Positions 6,265-62,138 of a DNA stretch of 64,000 bases are shown piece by piece. Numbering within the stretch: the first letter of the stretch is position 1; each line of letters begins with the position of its first letter. Position numbers and translations under genes: made by a program. This DNA comes from Mesorhizobium japonicum MAFF 303099. Lineage in GTDB: Bacteria; Pseudomonadota; Alphaproteobacteria; Rhizobiales; Rhizobiaceae. The DNA lies in assembly GCF_000009625.1 (NCBI RefSeq), contig NC_002678.2:1984001-2048000 (forward strand), in the 5' to 3' direction. Under the pieces are notes generated by a model. The model did no database searches. It was not told the DNA's origin and was given only the letters and a program-made list of their open reading frames with translations.

Positions 6265-8703
6265 TTACATCCGCGCCCTGGCCGAAGAGGGATCATAGGG
6301 TGAATCCGCGATGACCTCGGCGGTCTTCCATTCTCCCAGGATCGCGACGTCAAGCTTCGTGCCGGGCGTGCCGAGACGTTCCGGCAACAGCGCCAGCGCC
6401 ACATCATGGCCGAGCGTGTAGCCATAGCCGCCCGATGTGATGCGCCCGACCAGCTCGCCGCCGATGTACAGACCTTCGGAAGCGAGCGTGCTGGCGCCGT
6501 CGGTCTCTATTCTGAGCGTCACCGATCGGCGCTGGTCGTTCCTCGCCTTGTATTTCAGGACCGCGTCGCGGCCGACGAAATCGCCCTTGTCGAGGCGGAT
6601 GAAGCGTTCGAGCCCGCTCTCCAGCGCGTTGAGCTCTGGATTCATGTCGCGGTACATGGCGCGGTAGGATTTTTCGAGCCGCAGCGATTCCAGCGCATGC
6701 AGCCCGACGAGCCGCATGCCGTGCTTCTCGCCCTCTCCCAGGATCGCGTCGAGCAATTGCCGCTGGTAGGCCATGGGATGATAGAGTTCCCAGCCGAGCT
6801 CGCCCTCGTAGTTCACGCGCAGCAGCCGCACGTCGCTGGCAAGCGCCACGCTGCCGGTCTTCACCCCGAACCAGGGAAAGCCGGCATTCGACAGGTCGAT
6901 CTCGGTGAGTGGTTGCAGCACGTCCCGCGCCTTCGGCCCGACAATCGTGAAGCAGCCGCGCTCGTTGGTGACGTTCTTCAGGCTGACGCTGCCGTCGGCG
7001 GGAAGCAGCTTTGAGAGATCATCGAAATTCCAGCGCTCGGCGCGTGGCGTCGAAACGAGATAGAAACTGTCTTCGCCAAGCCCCGCCACCATGTATTCCG
7101 CTTGCACGCCGCCGCCCGCCGTCAGGTGATGCGCCAGCGTCGCTTTGCCGACCGCGGGAAGCCGGTTGGCGAGGATCCTGTCGAGCCAGGCGGCCGCGTT
7201 CGGCCCCGACACTTCGAACTTGGTCATCGGCGTCATCTCGACCAGGCCGACGGCGTTGCGCACGGCCTCCACCTCCTCGCCAACGAACACGCCCTTTTCG
7301 GTCCAGCGCCAGCTGTACTGGTCCTTGGCCTCGACGCCCTTGGGCGCGAACCAGTTCGGCATTTCCCAGCCGTTGAGCACGCCCCAGACCGCACCCAGTT
7401 CGGTCAGCCGCGCATAGGATGGCGCGGTCTTCTGCGGCCGGGCGGCGGGCATGTCCTGTCCCGGGTACTTTTGCTCCGCATGCGTGCCCCAGGCCTCGCG
7501 GACCTTCTCGCGCGTCCAGGCCTTGTTGGCGTAGTCGCCGAAGCGGCGCGGATCGAGATCGGAGGTGTCGAGGCTGTTGCCGCCTTCGACGATCCGCTCC
7601 GACAGGTAGTAGCCGATCGTGCCGCCCCACAATATGCCGCCCGGCACGCCCTCGGCCAGCCACACATTGGGCAGGCCCCAGGCCGGTCCCATCAGCGGAA
7701 GCTCGTCCGCCGTCATCTGGAAGGGACCCCGCACATTGGCCTTGATCCCGGCGCGTCCCAGCGCCGGCACGAGCTGTGTTGCCTGTTCCCAGTTCCACGA
7801 CACCGCCTCGAAATCCTCTTCGACGAGATCGGCGCCGAACCAGGCGGGAACGCCGTCCTCGGCGAACAGTTTGAGGTGTTCGGTGCGCTCGTAGGGCCCG
7901 AACATGAAGCCGTCGCCCTCCTCGCGCAGATAGCCCTCAAAACCCTCGTCGCGCAGGATCGGCATCTCGGCGCGTCCCTGCTTCTTGCGCTCTACGATCT
8001 CCGGCACCGGCTCGGTGATCCAGTACTGGTGCAGGATCGGGATGGCGGGGATGTCGAGGCCGAGCAGCGCGCCGGTCTGGCGGGCGTAATTGCCGGTCGC
8101 GCAGACCACATGCTCGCAGATGATGTCGCCCTTGTTCGTCTGGACCCGCCATTCGCCGCCAGCGGTCCGCTGAAAGCCGGTCACCTCGGTGTTCAGGTAA
8201 ATCTTGGCGCCCAGATCCCGCGCACCCTTGGCCATGGCATGGGTCACGTCGGCTGGCGCGATATGGCCGTCATCGGGATGATAGAGCGCACCCAGCATAT
8301 GCTTGTTATCGAGAAGCGGGCAAAGCGCCCTCGCCTCCGTCGGCGACAGCAAATGCGCCCGCATGCCCTGAACGTCGGCGACGCTCATATAGCTCTTGTA
8401 TTCGTCGAGCCGGTCCCTGGAATTGGCGATGCGCAGCTGGCCGCATTTGTGCCAGCCGACCGGCTGCCCGGTCTCGGCCTCCAGCCCTTCATAGATCTCG
8501 ATGGTCTTGTTGATCATCCGGCCGATATTGATGTTGCGGGCATAGGACGGGACGAGGCCCGCCGCGTGCCAGGTCGAGCCGGCGGTCAACTGCGTGCGTT
8601 CGAGCAGCGCGACGTCGGCCCAGCCGCGCTTGGCCAGACCGTAGAGGATGCCCGCGCCGACGCACCCGCCACCAACAACCACCACCCGCGCATGCGTCTG
8701 CAT
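6265..8703 (-). CDS. FAD-dependent oxidoreductase with GcvT domain (DMGDH/SarDH family)
   Basis: An 812-residue two-domain enzyme. Residues about 5-390 are a DAO-type FAD domain with the Rossmann motif VVVVGGGCVGAG and the SarDH-like LTAGSTWHAAGL segment. An FAO_M linker follows, then a GcvT aminomethyltransferase domain plus its C-terminal barrel (about 430-800) with ELGWELYHP and LRLEKSYRAMYRDM. Relatives oxidatively demethylate dimethylglycine, sarcosine or similar methylamines and pass the carbon to tetrahydrofolate. The ATG at 8703 is used because the FAD motif starts directly after it; the longer frame adds an unconserved 26-residue head. The precise substrate is not readable. Confidence 0.9.
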   Translation of the reverse strand: MQTHARVVVVGGGCVGAGILYGLAKRGWADVALLERTQLTAGSTWHAAGLVPSYARNINIGRMINKTIEIYEGLEAETGQPVGWHKCGQLRIANSRDRLDEYKSYMSVADVQGMRAHLLSPTEARALCPLLDNKHMLGALYHPDDGHIAPADVTHAMAKGARDLGAKIYLNTEVTGFQRTAGGEWRVQTNKGDIICEHVVCATGNYARQTGALLGLDIPAIPILHQYWITEPVPEIVERKKQGRAEMPILRDEGFEGYLREEGDGFMFGPYERTEHLKLFAEDGVPAWFGADLVEEDFEAVSWNWEQATQLVPALGRAGIKANVRGPFQMTADELPLMGPAWGLPNVWLAEGVPGGILWGGTIGYYLSERIVEGGNSLDTSDLDPRRFGDYANKAWTREKVREAWGTHAEQKYPGQDMPAARPQKTAPSYARLTELGAVWGVLNGWEMPNWFAPKGVEAKDQYSWRWTEKGVFVGEEVEAVRNAVGLVEMTPMTKFEVSGPNAAAWLDRILANRLPAVGKATLAHHLTAGGGVQAEYMVAGLGEDSFYLVSTPRAERWNFDDLSKLLPADGSVSLKNVTNERGCFTIVGPKARDVLQPLTEIDLSNAGFPWFGVKTGSVALASDVRLLRVNYEGELGWELYHPMAYQRQLLDAILGEGEKHGMRLVGLHALESLRLEKSYRAMYRDMNPELNALESGLERFIRLDKGDFVGRDAVLKYKARNDQRRSVTLRIETDGASTLASEGLYIGGELVGRITSGGYGYTLGHDVALALLPERLGTPGTKLDVAILGEWKTAEVIADSPYDPSSARARM

Positions 8704-8834
8704 CGACCCACCAAATCCCCAGTCATTTCCAATGTGTAGAGTCGAAGCTACAGATGGCGAAAGACCCTGTAACGTCTTCAAAAACTAGGGGTGATGATAA
8801 GCTGGATTTATGCAGCCGGGTACGTGGCCGAGCC

Positions 8835-9128
8835 CTACCCGAAAATCCGCTCGCCCTGTTCATCGACCAGCTGGATGCCCTTCTTGATCGAGATGTCGAC
8901 GGCGTCGTCGAGGCCGGCGAAGCGGTCGGCGCGGATGAATTTGTGCTCCTTCACCACGCCGTCGATCTCCTTGGAGACGATGCCGCAGGTCTGGTACTGG
9001 CCGTCGCTCTTGTAGGGCGTGGCGCTGATCAGGAAACCCTTGTGTTCGACCTGCTTGGCGGGTGCGGCACTCTTGGGCTCGGCCGCTTCACCGCCGCCAC
9101 CACCGAAAAGACGTTTCAGAAAAGACAT
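8835..9128 (-). CDS. HlyU-family protein
   Basis: A 97-residue protein matching the short HlyU-type family (PF10115): MSFLKRLFG, a Gly/Ala linker, then HKGFLISATPYKSDGQYQTCGIVSKEI and DDAVDISIKKGIQLVDEQGERIF. Vibrio HlyU is a winged-helix activator of haemolysin, but this alphaproteobacterial family is a different small fold and its role is not established. AAGGAG lies 9 bases before the ATG. It stands alone, 131 bases upstream of the oxidoreductase gene on the same strand. Confidence 0.8.
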   Translation of the reverse strand: MSFLKRLFGGGGGEAAEPKSAAPAKQVEHKGFLISATPYKSDGQYQTCGIVSKEIDGVVKEHKFIRADRFAGLDDAVDISIKKGIQLVDEQGERIFG

Positions 9129-9180
9129 CGCTCAAATCTCCTTGTTCGTCCTGCAATCGCGGCCTGCCCTGTTCGCGATT

Positions 9181-9231
9181 CACGACGCTGTTGTCCCAGC
9201 ATGCGCGAATGTGCGGCCGCGTTCCAGCCCC
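9181..9231. repeat. Extra copy of the tetR 3' end
   Basis: A 51-bp stretch that matches 10996-11046, the last codons of the tetR gene, at 48 of 51 positions (differences at 9184, 9212 and 9215) in the same orientation. Read on the minus strand it encodes the same end, FAHAGTTA, but the stop codon is replaced by TCG and the frame stops one codon later. It lies in a 361-base non-coding gap (9129-9489); nothing else was recognised there. The two copies bracket two methyltransferase-type genes. Confidence 0.8.
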
Positions 9232-9489
9232 TCGCCCGTTCCGCCTCTGTCCTGGCGACCAGGTCTGCGTTGCGCGAGGCGCATGGGAATTCAATCGCGA
9301 TCGGCAATATACCGCTGCCTGCCATGAATGTCCTTGAACTTGGAGGGCGATATTTCGTACCAGTAAGATGTTCATGGCCAACACGTTTCTTCGGCAAGCA
9401 TCTTCTGCACCGCCAACCGGCCCAATCACGCTTTGTCGCTGGCGGCATACCGGATAATTGGGTTTGACGTCGGCTTGTAGGACAACCGT

Positions 9490-10143
9490 ATGATTGAACG
9501 TCTTGCCACCGGAAGTGCATTGCTTGGCGCAGCGCTTGCGAGGATTCAAGACGGCACGATGCGCTACACGTACAAGGGCGTGCCCACCTACAAAAATCCA
9601 TTCGATCTGGCGCTGTACCAAATGCTGCTTTGGCAGCAAAAGCCCCGGACATTGATCGAGATCGGCTCCAAATGGGGCGGCAGCGCGCTCTGGTTTGCCG
9701 ATATGATGTGCAGCTTCGGCGTCGACTGCGTCATTCACTCGATCGACATCACGCCGCCCTCGATCAGCGTACCGGGCGTGACGTTTCATCGTGGCGACGG
9801 TCGCGACCTGGCGGCAACCCTACCGGCGGATCTGATGGAGAGCCTCCCCAGGCCGATTTTCGTCATCGAGGACGCGGACCATCATTGCGAGACGACGCTC
9901 GCCGTGCTGCGCTTCTTCGATCGTTGGCTGGTTGCCGGAGAGTATATTGCCGTCGAGGACGGTATTGTAGACGATCTTTATGGTCCAGAATTTGTCGCCA
10001 GGCTGATGGGCGGCCCGCGTCGTGCGGTCGAGCTGTTCTTGCGCGATCGTGGGCAGAACTATGAAATCGATACCGGCCTTTGCGACCACTTCGGCACCAA
10101 TGTGACGTGGAACGTCAACGGCTATCTCCGTCGCGTTCGCTAA
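9490..10143 (+). CDS. CmcI/cephalosporin-hydroxylase-type methyltransferase
   Basis: A 217-residue protein of the CmcI family (PF04989), SAM-dependent O-methyltransferases acting on sugars and secondary metabolites. The SAM motif region is LIEIGSKWGGSALWFADMM at about 55-73, the next acidic site is HSIDIT near 92, and the metal/substrate part is FVIEDADHHCETT followed by YIAVEDGIVDDLYG. AGGA lies 8 bases before the ATG. It is convergent with the next gene, 6 bases apart, and both lie between a copy of the tetR 3' end and tetR itself. It is somewhat less GC-rich than its surroundings. Likely substrate: a surface glycan or metabolite sugar; this is inference. Confidence 0.8.
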   Translation: MIERLATGSALLGAALARIQDGTMRYTYKGVPTYKNPFDLALYQMLLWQQKPRTLIEIGSKWGGSALWFADMMCSFGVDCVIHSIDITPPSISVPGVTFHRGDGRDLAATLPADLMESLPRPIFVIEDADHHCETTLAVLRFFDRWLVAGEYIAVEDGIVDDLYGPEFVARLMGGPRRAVELFLRDRGQNYEIDTGLCDHFGTNVTWNVNGYLRRVR

Positions 10144-10149
10144 CAACGC

Positions 10150-10938
10150 TCATTCCTTGCGCCACCAGGATCCGGTCCAGTCGACCTCTTGCATCGGCGC
10201 CGTGATGCCGTGTTTATCGCGAAAATCGATCACCGCGCGCCGGCATGGATCGAGGGCGCGATCGTCGATGATGACGACACCGCCCCGGGACAATTTGGGG
10301 TAAAGGGAATTCAGCGCCACAATGGTCGACTCGTACAGGTCGCCGTCGAGCCGCAGCAGCGCGAACGGCCCGGCGGACAGCGACGGCAGCGTGTCGCTGA
10401 ACATCCCTTCCACGAACACGACCTGCTCGTCGAGCAGCCCATAGCGTGAGAAATTGTCCTTGACCGTCTGCAGCGAGACGGCCAGTTCCTTGAACTCATG
10501 CAGGTCCCATCCGGTATCCCGGGGATAGAGCTCCACGTTTGGCGCCGGCAGGCCGGCAAACGAGTCAGCGACATAGACCTTGCGGTCATGGATCTGGTTC
10601 GCGGCAAGAACGCCGCGCATCAGGATGCAGCAGCCACCGCGCCAGACGCCCGTTTCGATGAAGTCGCCAACGATGCCGTCGTCCAGCACCTGTTGCGACA
10701 GCTGGCGCAAGTTCTCGAGGCGCGCCTGGCCGACCATCGTGTGAGCCTGCGTTGGCCAATCCTTGCCGATCGCGCGGGTTTTCGGGTTGAACGGCTCGAC
10801 CACCATCGGCCGAACCCCCGGGTTGATGGCGGGATCCTGGTAAATGGTGTTGAGCAATATCCTGACCAGGAGATCAAGATACAATTCCCGCGCTGCTGGG
10901 GTTGAATCTTTGACTGTCGTCATCATCCGGCTCTTCAT
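10150..10938 (-). CDS. TylF/MycF-type O-methyltransferase
   Basis: A 262-residue protein of the macrocin-O-methyltransferase family (PF05711). Diagnostic stretches are GVRPMVVEPFNP, GDFIETGVWRGGCCILMRG (SAM site), VYVADSFAGLP, FALLRLDGDLYESTIVALNSLYPKLSRGGVVIIDD (catalytic and metal-binding acids) and a C-terminal tryptophan pair. Family members methylate sugar hydroxyls in macrolides and in cell-surface glycans. The ATG at 10938 is preferred to a TTG at 10980, which would need an unusual start, though the ribosome site is weak. It converges on the CmcI-type gene; the two may act on the same sugar-containing product. Confidence 0.82.
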   Translation of the reverse strand: MKSRMMTTVKDSTPAARELYLDLLVRILLNTIYQDPAINPGVRPMVVEPFNPKTRAIGKDWPTQAHTMVGQARLENLRQLSQQVLDDGIVGDFIETGVWRGGCCILMRGVLAANQIHDRKVYVADSFAGLPAPNVELYPRDTGWDLHEFKELAVSLQTVKDNFSRYGLLDEQVVFVEGMFSDTLPSLSAGPFALLRLDGDLYESTIVALNSLYPKLSRGGVVIIDDRALDPCRRAVIDFRDKHGITAPMQEVDWTGSWWRKE

Positions 10939-10997
10939 TGCCCCGATCTGCCACGTTCGCGAATCCGCGCGACGCGTCAACCTTCAACGTCAAGCCA

Positions 10998-11636
10998 CTA
11001 CGCTGTTGTCCCAGCATGCGCGAATGCGCCGCCGCGTTCCAGCCCCCTGATGAAGACGGCGACCAGCAGCTCGATCTGCTGGTCGATCTCGCCGGCCTGC
11101 CGGCGCACGGACCTGCCGGCGTAACCGCTGGTGACGATGCCATGCACGCTTGACCACAATGTGCGCGCGGCGATCCGGCGCGTGTCGTCGTCGAGGTCGA
11201 AATCGCCGCCGGCAAGCACGCCGGCAATGATCTCGAACAGCTGGTCGAGCCGCGCTTCGTAGGCGTCCGGCTCGGCCAGCGTCGGGCGGCGCCTGTTGAA
11301 GGCAAGCAGCGCCGGCCAGCTGCCGGGATGCCCCTCGACGAAGTTCACATAGGCGCCGGCCAGTGCCAGCAGGCGCTGACGCACATCGGTGATGCCGCGC
11401 TGGGAAAGATCCGCCATCGCCGCGGCCCCTGCGGCCCCCAGCCGGTCGAGCAGCCGCATGTTGACGGCACGATGCACCCCGTCGAGATCAGAAAACAGAT
11501 TGTAGACCGAGCCGACCGAGATGCCCGCCTGCTCGGCGATGGTCCTGGCCTTCAGATTGTCCATGCCGCCCTCGTTGAGCAGCACTTCGGCAATGGCCAA
11601 TACACGCTCGCCCGTTTCTTCCTTGTCCAGTGCCAT
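10998..11636 (-). CDS. TetR-family transcriptional regulator
   Basis: A 212-residue repressor. The helix-turn-helix is at about 15-55 (VLAIAEVLLNEGG, then TIAEQAGISVGSVYNLFSDLDGV); the rest is an all-helical ligand domain of the TetR_C type. The ATG at 11636 has an AAGGAT box about 6 bases upstream; the longer frame runs into the operator region. It is divergent from the PspA/YiaA genes, and three TGAAC-N3-GTTCA palindromes lie between them, so it most likely represses itself and those genes. Its final 17 codons occur a second time at 9181-9231. Confidence 0.9.
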   Translation of the reverse strand: MALDKEETGERVLAIAEVLLNEGGMDNLKARTIAEQAGISVGSVYNLFSDLDGVHRAVNMRLLDRLGAAGAAAMADLSQRGITDVRQRLLALAGAYVNFVEGHPGSWPALLAFNRRRPTLAEPDAYEARLDQLFEIIAGVLAGGDFDLDDDTRRIAARTLWSSVHGIVTSGYAGRSVRRQAGEIDQQIELLVAVFIRGLERGGAFAHAGTTA

Positions 11637-11721
11637 ATCAATCCTTGTGCATGCGCCTGCCTTGCGCGGCACGCTGCTTCGAACCGCGAATTCCCCCCAA
11701 TTTATCACATCCGGGATTTCG

Positions 11722-11791
11722 TGAACAGCGTTCAAAAGTCGCTTGAACAATGTTCATTTTCTGTTATGTTGACTTCGTGAACATCGTTCAC
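11722..11791. promoter_or_regulatory. Three TetR operator palindromes
   Basis: Three 13-bp palindromes of the form TGAACANNGTTCA lie at 11722-11734, 11744-11756 and 11778-11790; the last extends to GTGAACATCGTTCAC (11777-11791). They fill the space between tetR and the pspA-like gene. Centre spacings are 22 and 34 bases, about two and three helical turns. One copy overlaps the likely -35 box and one lies just after the likely -10 box of the rightward promoter, as expected for repression. Confidence 0.75.
11743..11770 (+). promoter_or_regulatory. Likely sigma-70 promoter of the pspA-like gene
   Basis: TTGAAC at 11743-11748 and TATGTT at 11765-11770, spacer 16 bases, 40 bases upstream of the ATG. 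The -35 box is part of the middle operator palindrome. Prediction only. Confidence 0.45.
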
Positions 11792-11810
11792 GCGACAAGG
11801 GAGAAGAACC

Positions 11811-12488
11811 ATGCTTAGCCTAATCAGAACATTGCTCGACGGCGCCGGCGCGCGGGCCGAGGACGGCTTGAAGGATCGCTTCGCCATCGACCTTCTGGCG
11901 CAGCGCATCCGCGACGCCGAGGCGGGTCTTGCCGCCGCCAAGCAGACACTTGCCTCACTCATCGTTCGCCAGCGCGCCGAGCAGGCCGGTCTCGACCAGC
12001 TCCAACGCCGCCACGCGGATCTGGAAAGCCGCACGCTCAGCGCGCTCGCCGCCGGCAACAACGGCCTGGCCGAAAGTGGCGCTGCTGCCATCGCCGAACT
12101 GGAGAATGAGCGCGAAGTCCGCCGCGCCACGGTGCAAAGCCTTGGCGAAAAGACGTTGCGGATGCGCGTTTCGGTGGAACGGGCGCATCGCCGCATCATC
12201 GACTTGAACCAGGGCATGATCTCGGCCCGCGCCATCGATGCCGAGCGCAAGGCGCAGTCACGCCTTGTCAGGTCGATCGGCCATTCGGCGAGCCTCAACG
12301 ATGCCGAGGAGCTTTTGGCCCACATCACGGGAGCCAGCGACCCGTTCGAGGAGGCCGGCATCCTCGACGAGATCGACGGCGAACTGCGTCACGAAGCGAT
12401 CCGCGACCGCCTCGCCAATGCCGGACACGGCCCGGCGGTGAAGGTGCGCGCCAAGGACGTGCTCGAGCGTCTGAAAGCCGTCAACTGA
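11811..12488 (+). CDS. PspA/IM30-family membrane-stress protein
   Basis: A 225-residue coiled-coil protein of the PspA/IM30/Vipp1 family, which polymerises on the inner membrane and limits proton leakage under envelope stress. Long helices with heptad character run from about 25 to 150 (for example ARDAEAGLAAAKQTL-like spacing and RLVRSIGHSASLNDAEELLAHI). GGGAGAAG precedes the ATG. Instead of the sigma-54/PspF control of enterobacteria, it sits next to a TetR repressor gene and three matching operators. It is followed after 63 bases by a YiaA/YiaB-type membrane protein gene, likely its partner. Confidence 0.85.
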   Translation: MLSLIRTLLDGAGARAEDGLKDRFAIDLLAQRIRDAEAGLAAAKQTLASLIVRQRAEQAGLDQLQRRHADLESRTLSALAAGNNGLAESGAAAIAELENEREVRRATVQSLGEKTLRMRVSVERAHRRIIDLNQGMISARAIDAERKAQSRLVRSIGHSASLNDAEELLAHITGASDPFEEAGILDEIDGELRHEAIRDRLANAGHGPAVKVRAKDVLERLKAVN

Positions 12489-12551
12489 AACCAGTCTTTG
12501 CAGACCTGATTTCCATCAACCCAACCATCGCCAGATCAACGGAAAACTCCA

Positions 12552-12812
12552 ATGAACGCCAATCAGACCTACATCATGTTCAACACCGCCTCGGTCGGTG
12601 CCGCCTATTTCATGCTCGGCCTGTCGCTGTGGCTGGCGCCGGTCGACCTGTCGACCAAGGGCTACTGGGCCATGGGTATCCTGCTGCTCACGGGCAGCCT
12701 GGTGAACCTGGTCAAATACCGCACCGATGAGCGCCTGTCGGCCGAGATGAGCGCCAAGATCGAAAAGGCCCGCAACGAAAAGCTGATCAGCGAATATGTC
12801 GGCAAGGAATGA
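12552..12812 (+). CDS. YiaA/YiaB-family inner membrane protein
   Basis: An 86-residue protein matching the YiaAB two-helix domain (PF05360). Two hydrophobic segments are visible, about 13-30 (ASVGAAYFMLGLSLWLAP) and 39-56 (YWAMGILLLTGSLVNLV), followed by a charged amphipathic tail rich in Lys and Glu. Members are known from stress operons but have no defined biochemistry. It is the second gene after the TetR-controlled promoter, and a strong terminator follows directly. It probably anchors or senses with the PspA-like protein at the membrane (inference). Confidence 0.85.
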   Translation: MNANQTYIMFNTASVGAAYFMLGLSLWLAPVDLSTKGYWAMGILLLTGSLVNLVKYRTDERLSAEMSAKIEKARNEKLISEYVGKE

Positions 12813-12829
12813 TCCACATCGCCCTGACG

Positions 12830-12859
12830 AAAAAAGCCCGGGTCGCCCCGGGCTTTTTT
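12830..12859. terminator. Bidirectional rho-independent terminator
   Basis: Perfect stem GCCCGGG (12836-12842) and CCCGGGC (12847-12853), loop TCGC, flanked by six A on the left and six T on the right. It ends the PspA/YiaA operon and, read on the other strand, the convergent PadR gene. Confidence 0.92.
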
Positions 12860-12879
12860 CTGCGTTTATAGCGCCTGGC

Positions 12880-13572
12880 TCAACGGTGCGTCAGCGCTTC
12901 CAGCGCTTCGGCAGCGGCTTCGAGGACGGCGATCGCCTCGGCCTGCTTTTCGGCCGGGGCATCGACGATCTCGCCGAGCGCCGCGCGCAGGCGGTGGCGG
13001 ATGGCGCGGAATTCGTCGCGCGTTTCCGAACGCTCGCCGCGGCCGCCCCGGCCACCGCGACGGTCCTCGTCATCGTCGTTCCAGCCGAACCAGTCGCGTG
13101 CCTTGGCCATCTTGCGGCCAAAGCGTTCGAGGTGGTCGAGGACGCCGTCGATCATCTCGCGATTGTCGGCAAGATGCGCCTGCCCGGCCTCGGTGATGGA
13201 AAACACCTTCTTGTTGCCTTCGCTCGACGAGACGGCATAGCCGGCCTCTTCCAGGAAAGTCAGCGTCGGGTAGACCACGCCCGGGCTCGGGCTGTAGATG
13301 CCGCTGGTGCGCTCTTCCAGCGCCTTGATGATGTCGTAGCCATGGCGCGGCGCCTCGGCCAGCAGCGACAGCGTGATCAGCTTGAGGTCGCCGTCGGCCA
13401 GCATGCGGCCGGCGCGGAACATGTCGCCCGGGCCGCCGCGTCCGCCACCACGACCGCCATGGCCGAACGGGCCAAAGCCGCCGCCCCCTCTGCCACCGAA
13501 CTTGCCGGCCATGTGCATGAACATGCGCTCGCCGAAATGGCCGCGCCCGAAATGATGACTATCCTTGTGCAT
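12880..13572 (-). CDS. PadR-family regulator with Gly/His-rich head
   Basis: A 230-residue PadR regulator. The N-terminal 50 residues are unusual, rich in His, Gly, Arg and Phe (HFGRGHFGERMFMHMAGK, then poly-Gly). The PadR winged helix follows at about 60-140 (LKLITLSLLAEAPRHGYDIIKALEE, SPGVVYPTLTFLEEAGYAVSS), then a helical dimerisation arm. The His-rich head could bind a metal. Repeated palindromic boxes directly upstream suggest autoregulation; no obvious partner gene lies next to it, since the next gene upstream is on the same strand. It ends at a shared terminator. Confidence 0.9.
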   Translation of the reverse strand: MHKDSHHFGRGHFGERMFMHMAGKFGGRGGGGFGPFGHGGRGGGRGGPGDMFRAGRMLADGDLKLITLSLLAEAPRHGYDIIKALEERTSGIYSPSPGVVYPTLTFLEEAGYAVSSSEGNKKVFSITEAGQAHLADNREMIDGVLDHLERFGRKMAKARDWFGWNDDDEDRRGGRGGRGERSETRDEFRAIRHRLRAALGEIVDAPAEKQAEAIAVLEAAAEALEALTHR

Positions 13573-60746: not shown

Positions 60747-62138
60747 TCAAGCCATCTTTGACATCAATTTTGGGTCATCAATCTTACGATTTTCGGCAGC
60801 CCATTCTATACAATGGATCAGGCATAGACGCGCCAACTGTTCGGCGCGGGCAGAATTGTTGCTCCAATCTGTTCCAATTCTCTCATTGTTACCGTGAATC
60901 GTGCGGCTTCGTCCGTAACCATAAATAACCGATACTGCGCTCTTCAATGTCGTTCCATCCGAGAATACACGAGCATCACCCTTCAAACCAAGGCGAGCAT
61001 CGAACAAGCTCAGAATCCCATTCTCCTTCCCCCCACAGGCAAGAGCATCCATCGTCGCTGCGAATTTTACAATAGCAATTAGTGGAGAGCGATCCCGACA
61101 TCCTTCATGAAACCAAAGTAGGGCGTGGAACAGCGTACGCATGAGATTTGTACGTGATACTTCCGCGAACGACAGGCTGTAGTCAGTTATCTCTGTAACA
61201 ATCGAAAAATAGTTCTTGCTCTCGGAAATTAGTGCATCCCATTTTTCTCCGTTGAAATCACCATCAACCGTCAGGTGGATCTTCGTCCGGCTTGTAAGGA
61301 TATTTCTTTCATGGAACGTCATCGCAACTTGGAATTGAACTTCACGATCATAGGCTAAATTAAAGCCGTCAAGTCTTCTCGAGGGTGTTTGCCACAGAAG
61401 CGCAATCGAAGTGAGAGCCAGTCGGGCAGCGATAAGTGCCTTCTCGCGCCCTAGTCCCAAGGCGTAGCCGTCCGTTGTGACGCTGCATACATACGGACAA
61501 TCACCAACGGCATCAATGATATCCTGCTCACCCATGCTTTCAAAACTGGGTTTTCGAGCTCTCATGTTACTTCCGGACCAAATCTTTTCGATACGCCGAT
61601 AAGTAACCAAGCTTATGTCACCTTCGACCATCTTTCTCTTTAGCCATTCTCTACGCGCCTCGAAGCGGACGGAACCTATCACAAAGGCAGAGAAGGATAA
61701 CCTGTTGAACAGCGTGCAGCCAAAGCAATGCTCCTGTCGTAATTTTCCACGATCGATAGACTGCTCAATGAACGTCCGAACGCTGGAAAGCGTAATGTCG
61801 GCGTTTTCAGCAATATCGTGATCCAGATCGATCGCTGCCAAGGCAGGTCCGAACGCCCTTCGAACGATCGAACGCAGCTCGTCAGTTCCTACACGCTTGC
61901 CCAGTTCGTGTTCACTTGCATGTATTTGGAGAGACACTAGGTCGATCAGATTATCTATCTTTCTCGAGACGTAAAGAGTCCGTTCTCCATCTACGGCAAT
62001 CATTCGAGGAAACGGAAAATCATCATCATCCCTCCAAGGAGGCAGAACTGCGCCTTGAAGCCGTGTCAACTCTACAATGATATCAGAAATCATCTGCCTT
62101 AGTTTCATGACAACCCGTGTGTAGTTCCGATATGACAC
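60747..62138 (-). CDS. Apea/HEPN-like protein of unknown function, low GC
   Basis: A 463-residue soluble protein. The C-terminal third looks like an Apea-like HEPN domain: LFHALLWFHEGCRDRSPLIA, KFAATMDALACGG, then SVIYGYGRSRTIHGNN with an R410-x4-H415 motif, the ribonuclease signature of HEPN proteins, and a closing helix LARLCLIHCIEWAAEN. The N-terminal 300 residues match nothing known. GC is about 48% in sampled stretches against over 60% nearby, so it was probably acquired. The GTG start at 62138 has a GAGG box directly before it; an ATG at 62108 is an alternative. It could be a defence or toxin gene; this is inference. Confidence 0.6.
   Translation of the reverse strand: MSYRNYTRVVMKLRQMISDIIVELTRLQGAVLPPWRDDDDFPFPRMIAVDGERTLYVSRKIDNLIDLVSLQIHASEHELGKRVGTDELRSIVRRAFGPALAAIDLDHDIAENADITLSSVRTFIEQSIDRGKLRQEHCFGCTLFNRLSFSAFVIGSVRFEARREWLKRKMVEGDISLVTYRRIEKIWSGSNMRARKPSFESMGEQDIIDAVGDCPYVCSVTTDGYALGLGREKALIAARLALTSIALLWQTPSRRLDGFNLAYDREVQFQVAMTFHERNILTSRTKIHLTVDGDFNGEKWDALISESKNYFSIVTEITDYSLSFAEVSRTNLMRTLFHALLWFHEGCRDRSPLIAIVKFAATMDALACGGKENGILSLFDARLGLKGDARVFSDGTTLKSAVSVIYGYGRSRTIHGNNERIGTDWSNNSARAEQLARLCLIHCIEWAAENRKIDDPKLMSKMA

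Follow-up and report, generated by a model that had tools for sequence, protein, structure and literature searches.

In the chromosome of Mesorhizobium japonicum MAFF 303099, two O-methyltransferase genes lie between direct repeats of the 3′ end of a tetR-family regulator gene. How did these genes come to be there, and do they still move? The locus was analysed within a stretch of 64,000 nucleotides of contig NC_002678.2 (positions 1,984,001 to 2,048,000 of the forward strand), referred to here as the window. A sequence-only reading had taken the arrangement for the footprint of a site-specific or target-site-duplicating insertion, and had suggested that the two genes could be a minimal cassette that is moved in trans. 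The features of the locus are listed in Table 1.

Table 1. Features of the methyltransferase locus and neighbouring genes, in window positions
Feature	Position	Strand	Remarks
HlyU-family gene, left neighbour	8835..9128	-	PF10115, E 4.5e-30; present in 146/146 genus genomes
Repeat copy B (distal, tetR 3′ end)	9181..9231	-	Continues left to 9176 (CGATT) in the window
Insert	9232..10995	.	Missing in 60/64 tetR-bearing relatives
MT1, CmcI/RMNT-type O-methyltransferase	9490..10143	+	PF04989, E 2.2e-24; CmcI 2br3, E 8.7e-19
MT2, TylF/MycF/NovP-type O-methyltransferase	10150..10926	-	PF05711, E 1.1e-94 (for 10150-10932)
Repeat copy A (proximal)	10996..11046	-	Final 51 bases of the tetR region, carrying a new TAG stop in this genome
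tetR-family regulator gene, 213 aa	10998..11639	-	PF13305 and PF00440; orthologue in 64/146 genus genomes
PspA/IM30-family gene, accessory tetR-pspA-yiaA module	11811..12488	+	PF04012
YiaA/B-domain gene, tetR-pspA-yiaA module	12552..12812	+	PF05360
Gene called PadR (named by eye)	12880..13572	-	Right border of variable interval

The direct repeat and the DNA between its copies

The two repeat copies have the same orientation and are identical at 48 of 51 positions, the differences being at bases 4, 32 and 35 of the repeat, confirming that the last 51 bases of tetR recur at the far side of the methyltransferase genes. The CGATT extension of copy B belongs to the part that is likewise repeated in Mesorhizobium sp. 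WSM4311. The longest exact direct repeat within positions 7500-13000 was 27 bp, and first-order Markov shuffles of this region (n = 200) gave exact direct repeats of at most 16 bp; a chance origin was therefore rejected. When up to three mismatches were allowed, the 27-base core was found at exactly two sites in the 7,596,297-bp genome, both flanking the insert. A dispersed repeat family was rejected on this ground, and the genome-wide search for other cargo between repeats, as suggested in the sequence-only reading, yielded no third copy. A 71-base stretch containing the repeat found no match in phages and plasmids.

The content of the insert was also as first described: MT1 and MT2 are convergent with their stop codons 6 bp apart, and neither an integrase gene nor any other gene lies between the repeats. 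The G + C content of the insert is 59.6%, slightly lower than the 63.8% of the window, and 5.8% of 1,764-bp windows have a lower value. An ordinary transposon was rejected as the source, since a duplication of 51-58 bp is too long and there is no transposase among the genes; we know of no transposase that makes a target duplication of this length.

Empty and filled sites in the genus

The genus was sampled with one genome per species (146 genomes), and matches with an E value of 1e-50 or better were accepted as tetR orthologues. The match to HlyU was separated from that to tetR by 49-112 bp in 60 of the 64 tetR-bearing genomes (empty sites) and by 1,872-2,149 bp in the other four (filled sites). 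The four carriers are the window genome (G000), M. jarvisii LMG 28313 (G019), M. intechi BD68 (G018) and M. sp. WSM4311 (G071). No other element was found between HlyU and tetR in any of the 60 empty tetR-bearing genomes, each representing one species. Matches that extend along the length of the insert were present in four of the 146 genomes, at this locus alone; an insert match of some kind was found in 33 genomes, in 29 of which it was partial, weaker and located elsewhere.

The 27-base repeat pattern, with up to three mismatches, was matched in 27 of the 146 genus genomes. It occurred twice in the window genome, M. jarvisii and WSM4311, once in M. intechi, whose other copy carries an indel, and once in 23 further genomes, namely 19 empty genomes and four in which tetR is cut to a stump. 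All 19 empty genomes matched by the pattern thus have a single repeat copy, and among the 146 genomes neither a paired pattern nor other cargo between repeats was found outside the insert carriers. Genomes in which HlyU directly follows tetR, for which a search had been recommended, are thus in the majority among those that bear tetR. The part of the sequence-only reading that called the arrangement an insertion is borne out by these sites; a site-specific origin is retained as a rival explanation, which we regard as possible rather than probable.

Between the window and each of the other carriers the cargo shows 89-95% identity, and the flanking genes (HlyU, tetR, a dehydrogenase gene and the PadR gene) are 92-98% identical among carriers, so that the cargo has diverged about as much as its flanks. 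A rpoB tree of 28 of the 30 fetched genomes (G121 and G028 were omitted as incomplete) was too star-like to tell whether the four carriers form one clade.

The two methyltransferase genes

Both products matched their families over nearly the full length. MT1 covers positions 6-206 of the 206 of profile PF04989, and its Asp and Glu-Asp residues align with acidic residues of CmcI (2br3). MT2 covers positions 3-264 of the 264 of PF05711 and matches 4cdz (E 2.1e-75) and, with E values of about 1e-69, the entries for MycF and NovP; its LDGD and IIDD motifs align with 4cdz. We take the aligned acidic residues of both proteins to have metal-binding roles. Both genes are intact in all four carriers, with pairwise dN/dS of 0.12-0.29. 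By sequence, MT1 and MT2 look like intact sugar O-methyltransferases, and the two enzymes probably O-methylate a sugar, plausibly one that is part of a surface glycan. Methylated surface sugars exist in the genus, as 2-O-methyl-6-deoxytalose has been reported in the LPS of M. loti NZP2213 (PMC6274867). Should LPS or capsule be what MT1 and MT2 modify, the recognition of these root symbionts by phages or plants might be affected.

MT1 found no match in viral contigs and phages, and matched 11 plasmid records, each below 60% identity. In 394 genomes of the family, 397 of the order and 289 of the class, the best match outside the genus was 54% identical. A protein collection gave 887 matching proteins, with several at 65-85% identity among the 120 matches listed. 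An MT2 homologue was read within a few kb in eight of ten loci that hold an MT1 homologue outside this site; this count is biased, as four of the eight loci were fetched by their MT2 match and the Tistrella locus was picked from the 11 plasmid matches. When only loci fetched by an MT1 match are considered, three of five also have MT2. The recurrent proximity of CmcI- and TylF-type genes in other genomes suggests a functional pair. Homologues of the two types were near neighbours, in several orientations, at loci L053, L054, L055, L057, L113-L115 and L117.

Instability of the accessory interval between HlyU and PadR

No tetR match was found in 82 of the 146 genus genomes. Of these, 20 were sampled, and in all 20 HlyU adjoins the PadR gene, with no match to TetR, PspA, YiaA, MT1 or MT2; the tetR-pspA-yiaA module is therefore itself accessory. 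Partial states of the module are also found. The tetR gene is cut to a 3′ stump in five genomes (G020, G044, G048, G065 and G134), and pspA is truncated in M. intechi. In WSM4311 (L071 4989-6568), tetR is intact, pspA is unmatched and yiaA is reduced to its end, leaving what is apparently an orphan regulator.

Three exact TGAACnnnGTTCA palindromes (11722-11734, 11744-11756 and 11778-11790) were seen in the interval from which tetR and pspA diverge, and elsewhere in the window a single match, with one mismatch, at 61706. The palindromes are likely operators of the tetR product.

In G134 (L067 3556-5790), a methyltransferase-like fragment and a 491-aa sulfotransferase-like ORF lie between the tetR stump and a yiaA remnant, and this ORF has a tail of tandem AERDALAQAHHNLS-like repeats; Pfam found no family in this cargo, and both labels were given by eye. 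A further conjecture, to which we attach little probability, is that some undescribed recombinase uses the 3′ end of tetR for attachment and spreads small surface-glycan cassettes that lack an integrase as satellites among Mesorhizobium; the MT pair would be one such cassette, and the G134 sulfotransferase-like gene with its methyltransferase-like fragment another.

A probable older form of the insert and its erosion

The repeat of WSM4311 is 58 bp long, with both copies 100% identical, and extends through the native stop codon of tetR (TGA) for another four bases. Compared with the window, there are 177 extra bases between the right end of the insert and the tetR copy in WSM4311 and 127 in M. 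intechi. The simplest reading is that WSM4311 keeps the older form: the window genome and M. jarvisii appear to share a later deletion in which the right end of the insert and the native tetR stop were lost, the window tetR would now end at a TAG created by one base change, and 51 bp would be the eroded size of a 58-bp repeat. The copies have also changed separately in G000, G019 and G018.

An element of roughly 80 bp was observed between MT1 and MT2 in M. intechi (L069 8350-8435) and WSM4311 (L071 7592-7677) and is missing in the window and in M. jarvisii. It resembles rhizobial intergenic repeats.

Upstream haplotypes and the readings of excision or loss

In the 58 bp to the left of the repeat, upstream of HlyU, identity to WSM4311 is 91-95% for the three remaining carriers and likewise for the stump genomes G134, G020, G044 and G048, whereas it is at most 88% for the 28 empty genomes (of 60) that were compared. 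The fifth stump genome, G065, is 24% identical and does not share the haplotype. HlyU itself is 94-96% identical to that of the nearest empty sisters and 88-91% to that of the same four stump genomes. The long upstream form was also found beside an intact tetR in G010 and G121, and may therefore be ancestral.

For the short-form empty sites that were compared, an origin by excision was rejected, because their haplotype just upstream of HlyU differs from that of the carriers. This bears on the reading that the islet is ancestral and disappeared from the empty genomes when its two repeats recombined. Such recombination would leave exactly the single-copy site that is seen, but all 60 other tetR-bearing genomes are empty, distant ones included, and the upstream haplotype of the close empty sisters is not one that this loss would produce; an ancestral islet is thus very improbable.

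The haplotypes also weigh on the proposal that the two genes are a minimal cassette which a recombinase encoded elsewhere still moves in trans. Two intact genes under purifying selection, with nothing else between direct repeats, would fit such a cassette. Against it, the repeat is at only two places in the genome and has no phage or plasmid match, the pair of repeats is absent outside the carriers in 146 genomes, the full-length cargo is at one locus only (4 of 146 genomes), the repeat copies of three carriers are diverging separately, and the compared short-form empty sites do not look, by haplotype, like excision products. We consider continued mobilisation highly unlikely, and this part of the sequence-only reading was given up.

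Origin of the islet

The reading we prefer, and hold to be somewhat more probable than its negation, is that a pair of sugar-modifying genes was acquired in a single event, by recombination that was not site-specific. MT1-MT2 would be an accessory islet that entered the ancestry of a few Mesorhizobium species once and has been passed on since then, by inheritance or by exchange along with its flanks; the recombination would have linked it to the chromosome where HlyU and tetR meet, leaving the direct repeat as a scar. In its favour are the 60 empty sites against four filled ones, a cargo identity within the range of the flanks, and the instability of the interval. Against it, the four carriers are not resolved as one clade in the star-like rpoB tree, and repeats at the 3′ end of a gene, including its stop codon, are what the scar of an integrase is expected to look like.

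Two variants of this gain may be envisaged. In the first, an allele fusion, the donor DNA would be a G134-like haplotype with a tetR 3′ stump beside HlyU, followed by other cargo. One end would have recombined through homology near HlyU, and the other would have been joined by a few shared bases (CGA) just past the stop codon of the recipient's tetR, as in homology-facilitated illegitimate recombination, whose joins have been described with segments of 3-10 bp (PMC6382021). There are signs of such a fusion. The upstream haplotype is common to the carriers and four stump genomes, whereas HlyU is nearest to that of empty sisters, so that the haplotype switches between HlyU and the repeat. In addition, G134 matches, at the same locus, the final 40 bp of the insert of WSM4311 (85%, E 2e-4), in a single match that ends at CGA, where the insert joins the tetR end. 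However, the G134 match is short, and a search of the genus with the right end of the insert gave nearly as good matches elsewhere (G052, 2.8e-4; G036, 6.0e-4). G065 lacks the haplotype, the long form also accompanies an intact tetR in two genomes, and the identity of the WSM4311 copies over 58 bp is unexpected if they came from different lineages. In the second variant, foreign DNA would have been captured at a staggered break, giving a duplication of about 58 bp, which is unusually long for break capture.

A serious rival, though one we would put at well under an even chance, is a decayed site-specific element of the CIME type (PMC5704250), in which the tetR 3′ end would once have served an integrative element as attB, attL and attR would survive as the repeats, and the integrase and transfer genes would have been lost. 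It would account for a long direct repeat at the 3′ end of a gene that is kept intact, for identical copies in WSM4311 and for the later erosion of the insert; by the cited definition CIMEs lack integration and transfer genes and keep attL and attR, and 15 Dehalococcoides ssrA islands without an integration module have been described (PMC3146451). Yet none of the four carriers, as read, has an integrase gene between the repeats, the site is vacant in all 60 other tetR-bearing genomes, with no related integrase-bearing element, the repeat has no phage or plasmid match, and even the WSM4311 insert is small, at about 2 kb. On balance, the islet seems to have been acquired once, long ago, and does not look like a cassette that is still mobile.

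Comparison with known systems

The locus is a small, well-bracketed case in which accessory genes have come into an interval of the chromosome, its states (empty, filled, eroded and deleted) being kept in one genus, and it cautions that cargo between direct repeats need not be a mobile cassette. It resembles CIMEs in having cargo between direct repeats of the 3′ end of a target gene and no genes for integration or transfer; it differs from them in that the islet is very small, no related integrase element occupies the site in the genus sample, and its repeats are putative att sites. The Dehalococcoides ssrA islands without an integration module, as described in PMC3146451, likewise have cargo between a gene 3′ end and its direct repeat and no integrase of their own. 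Those islands are many and tandem, with integrase-bearing relatives adjacent and a 20-bp repeat, whereas the islet here is one, at a single site, with a repeat of 51-58 bp.

Homology-facilitated illegitimate recombination, as set out in PMC6382021, with homology at one end and a few shared bases at the other, would account for the CGA join as well as for the change of haplotype near HlyU; it does not predict the identity of both repeat copies, and the donor strain is hypothetical here. For the gene pair itself, plasmid pTM1 of Tistrella mobilis offers a parallel, as methyltransferases of the CmcI and TylF/MycF families are found side by side in it. The pTM1 genes are codirectional, overlap by one base and are followed by PqqD and O-GlcNAc-transferase-like genes, whereas the pair in the islet is convergent and stands alone.
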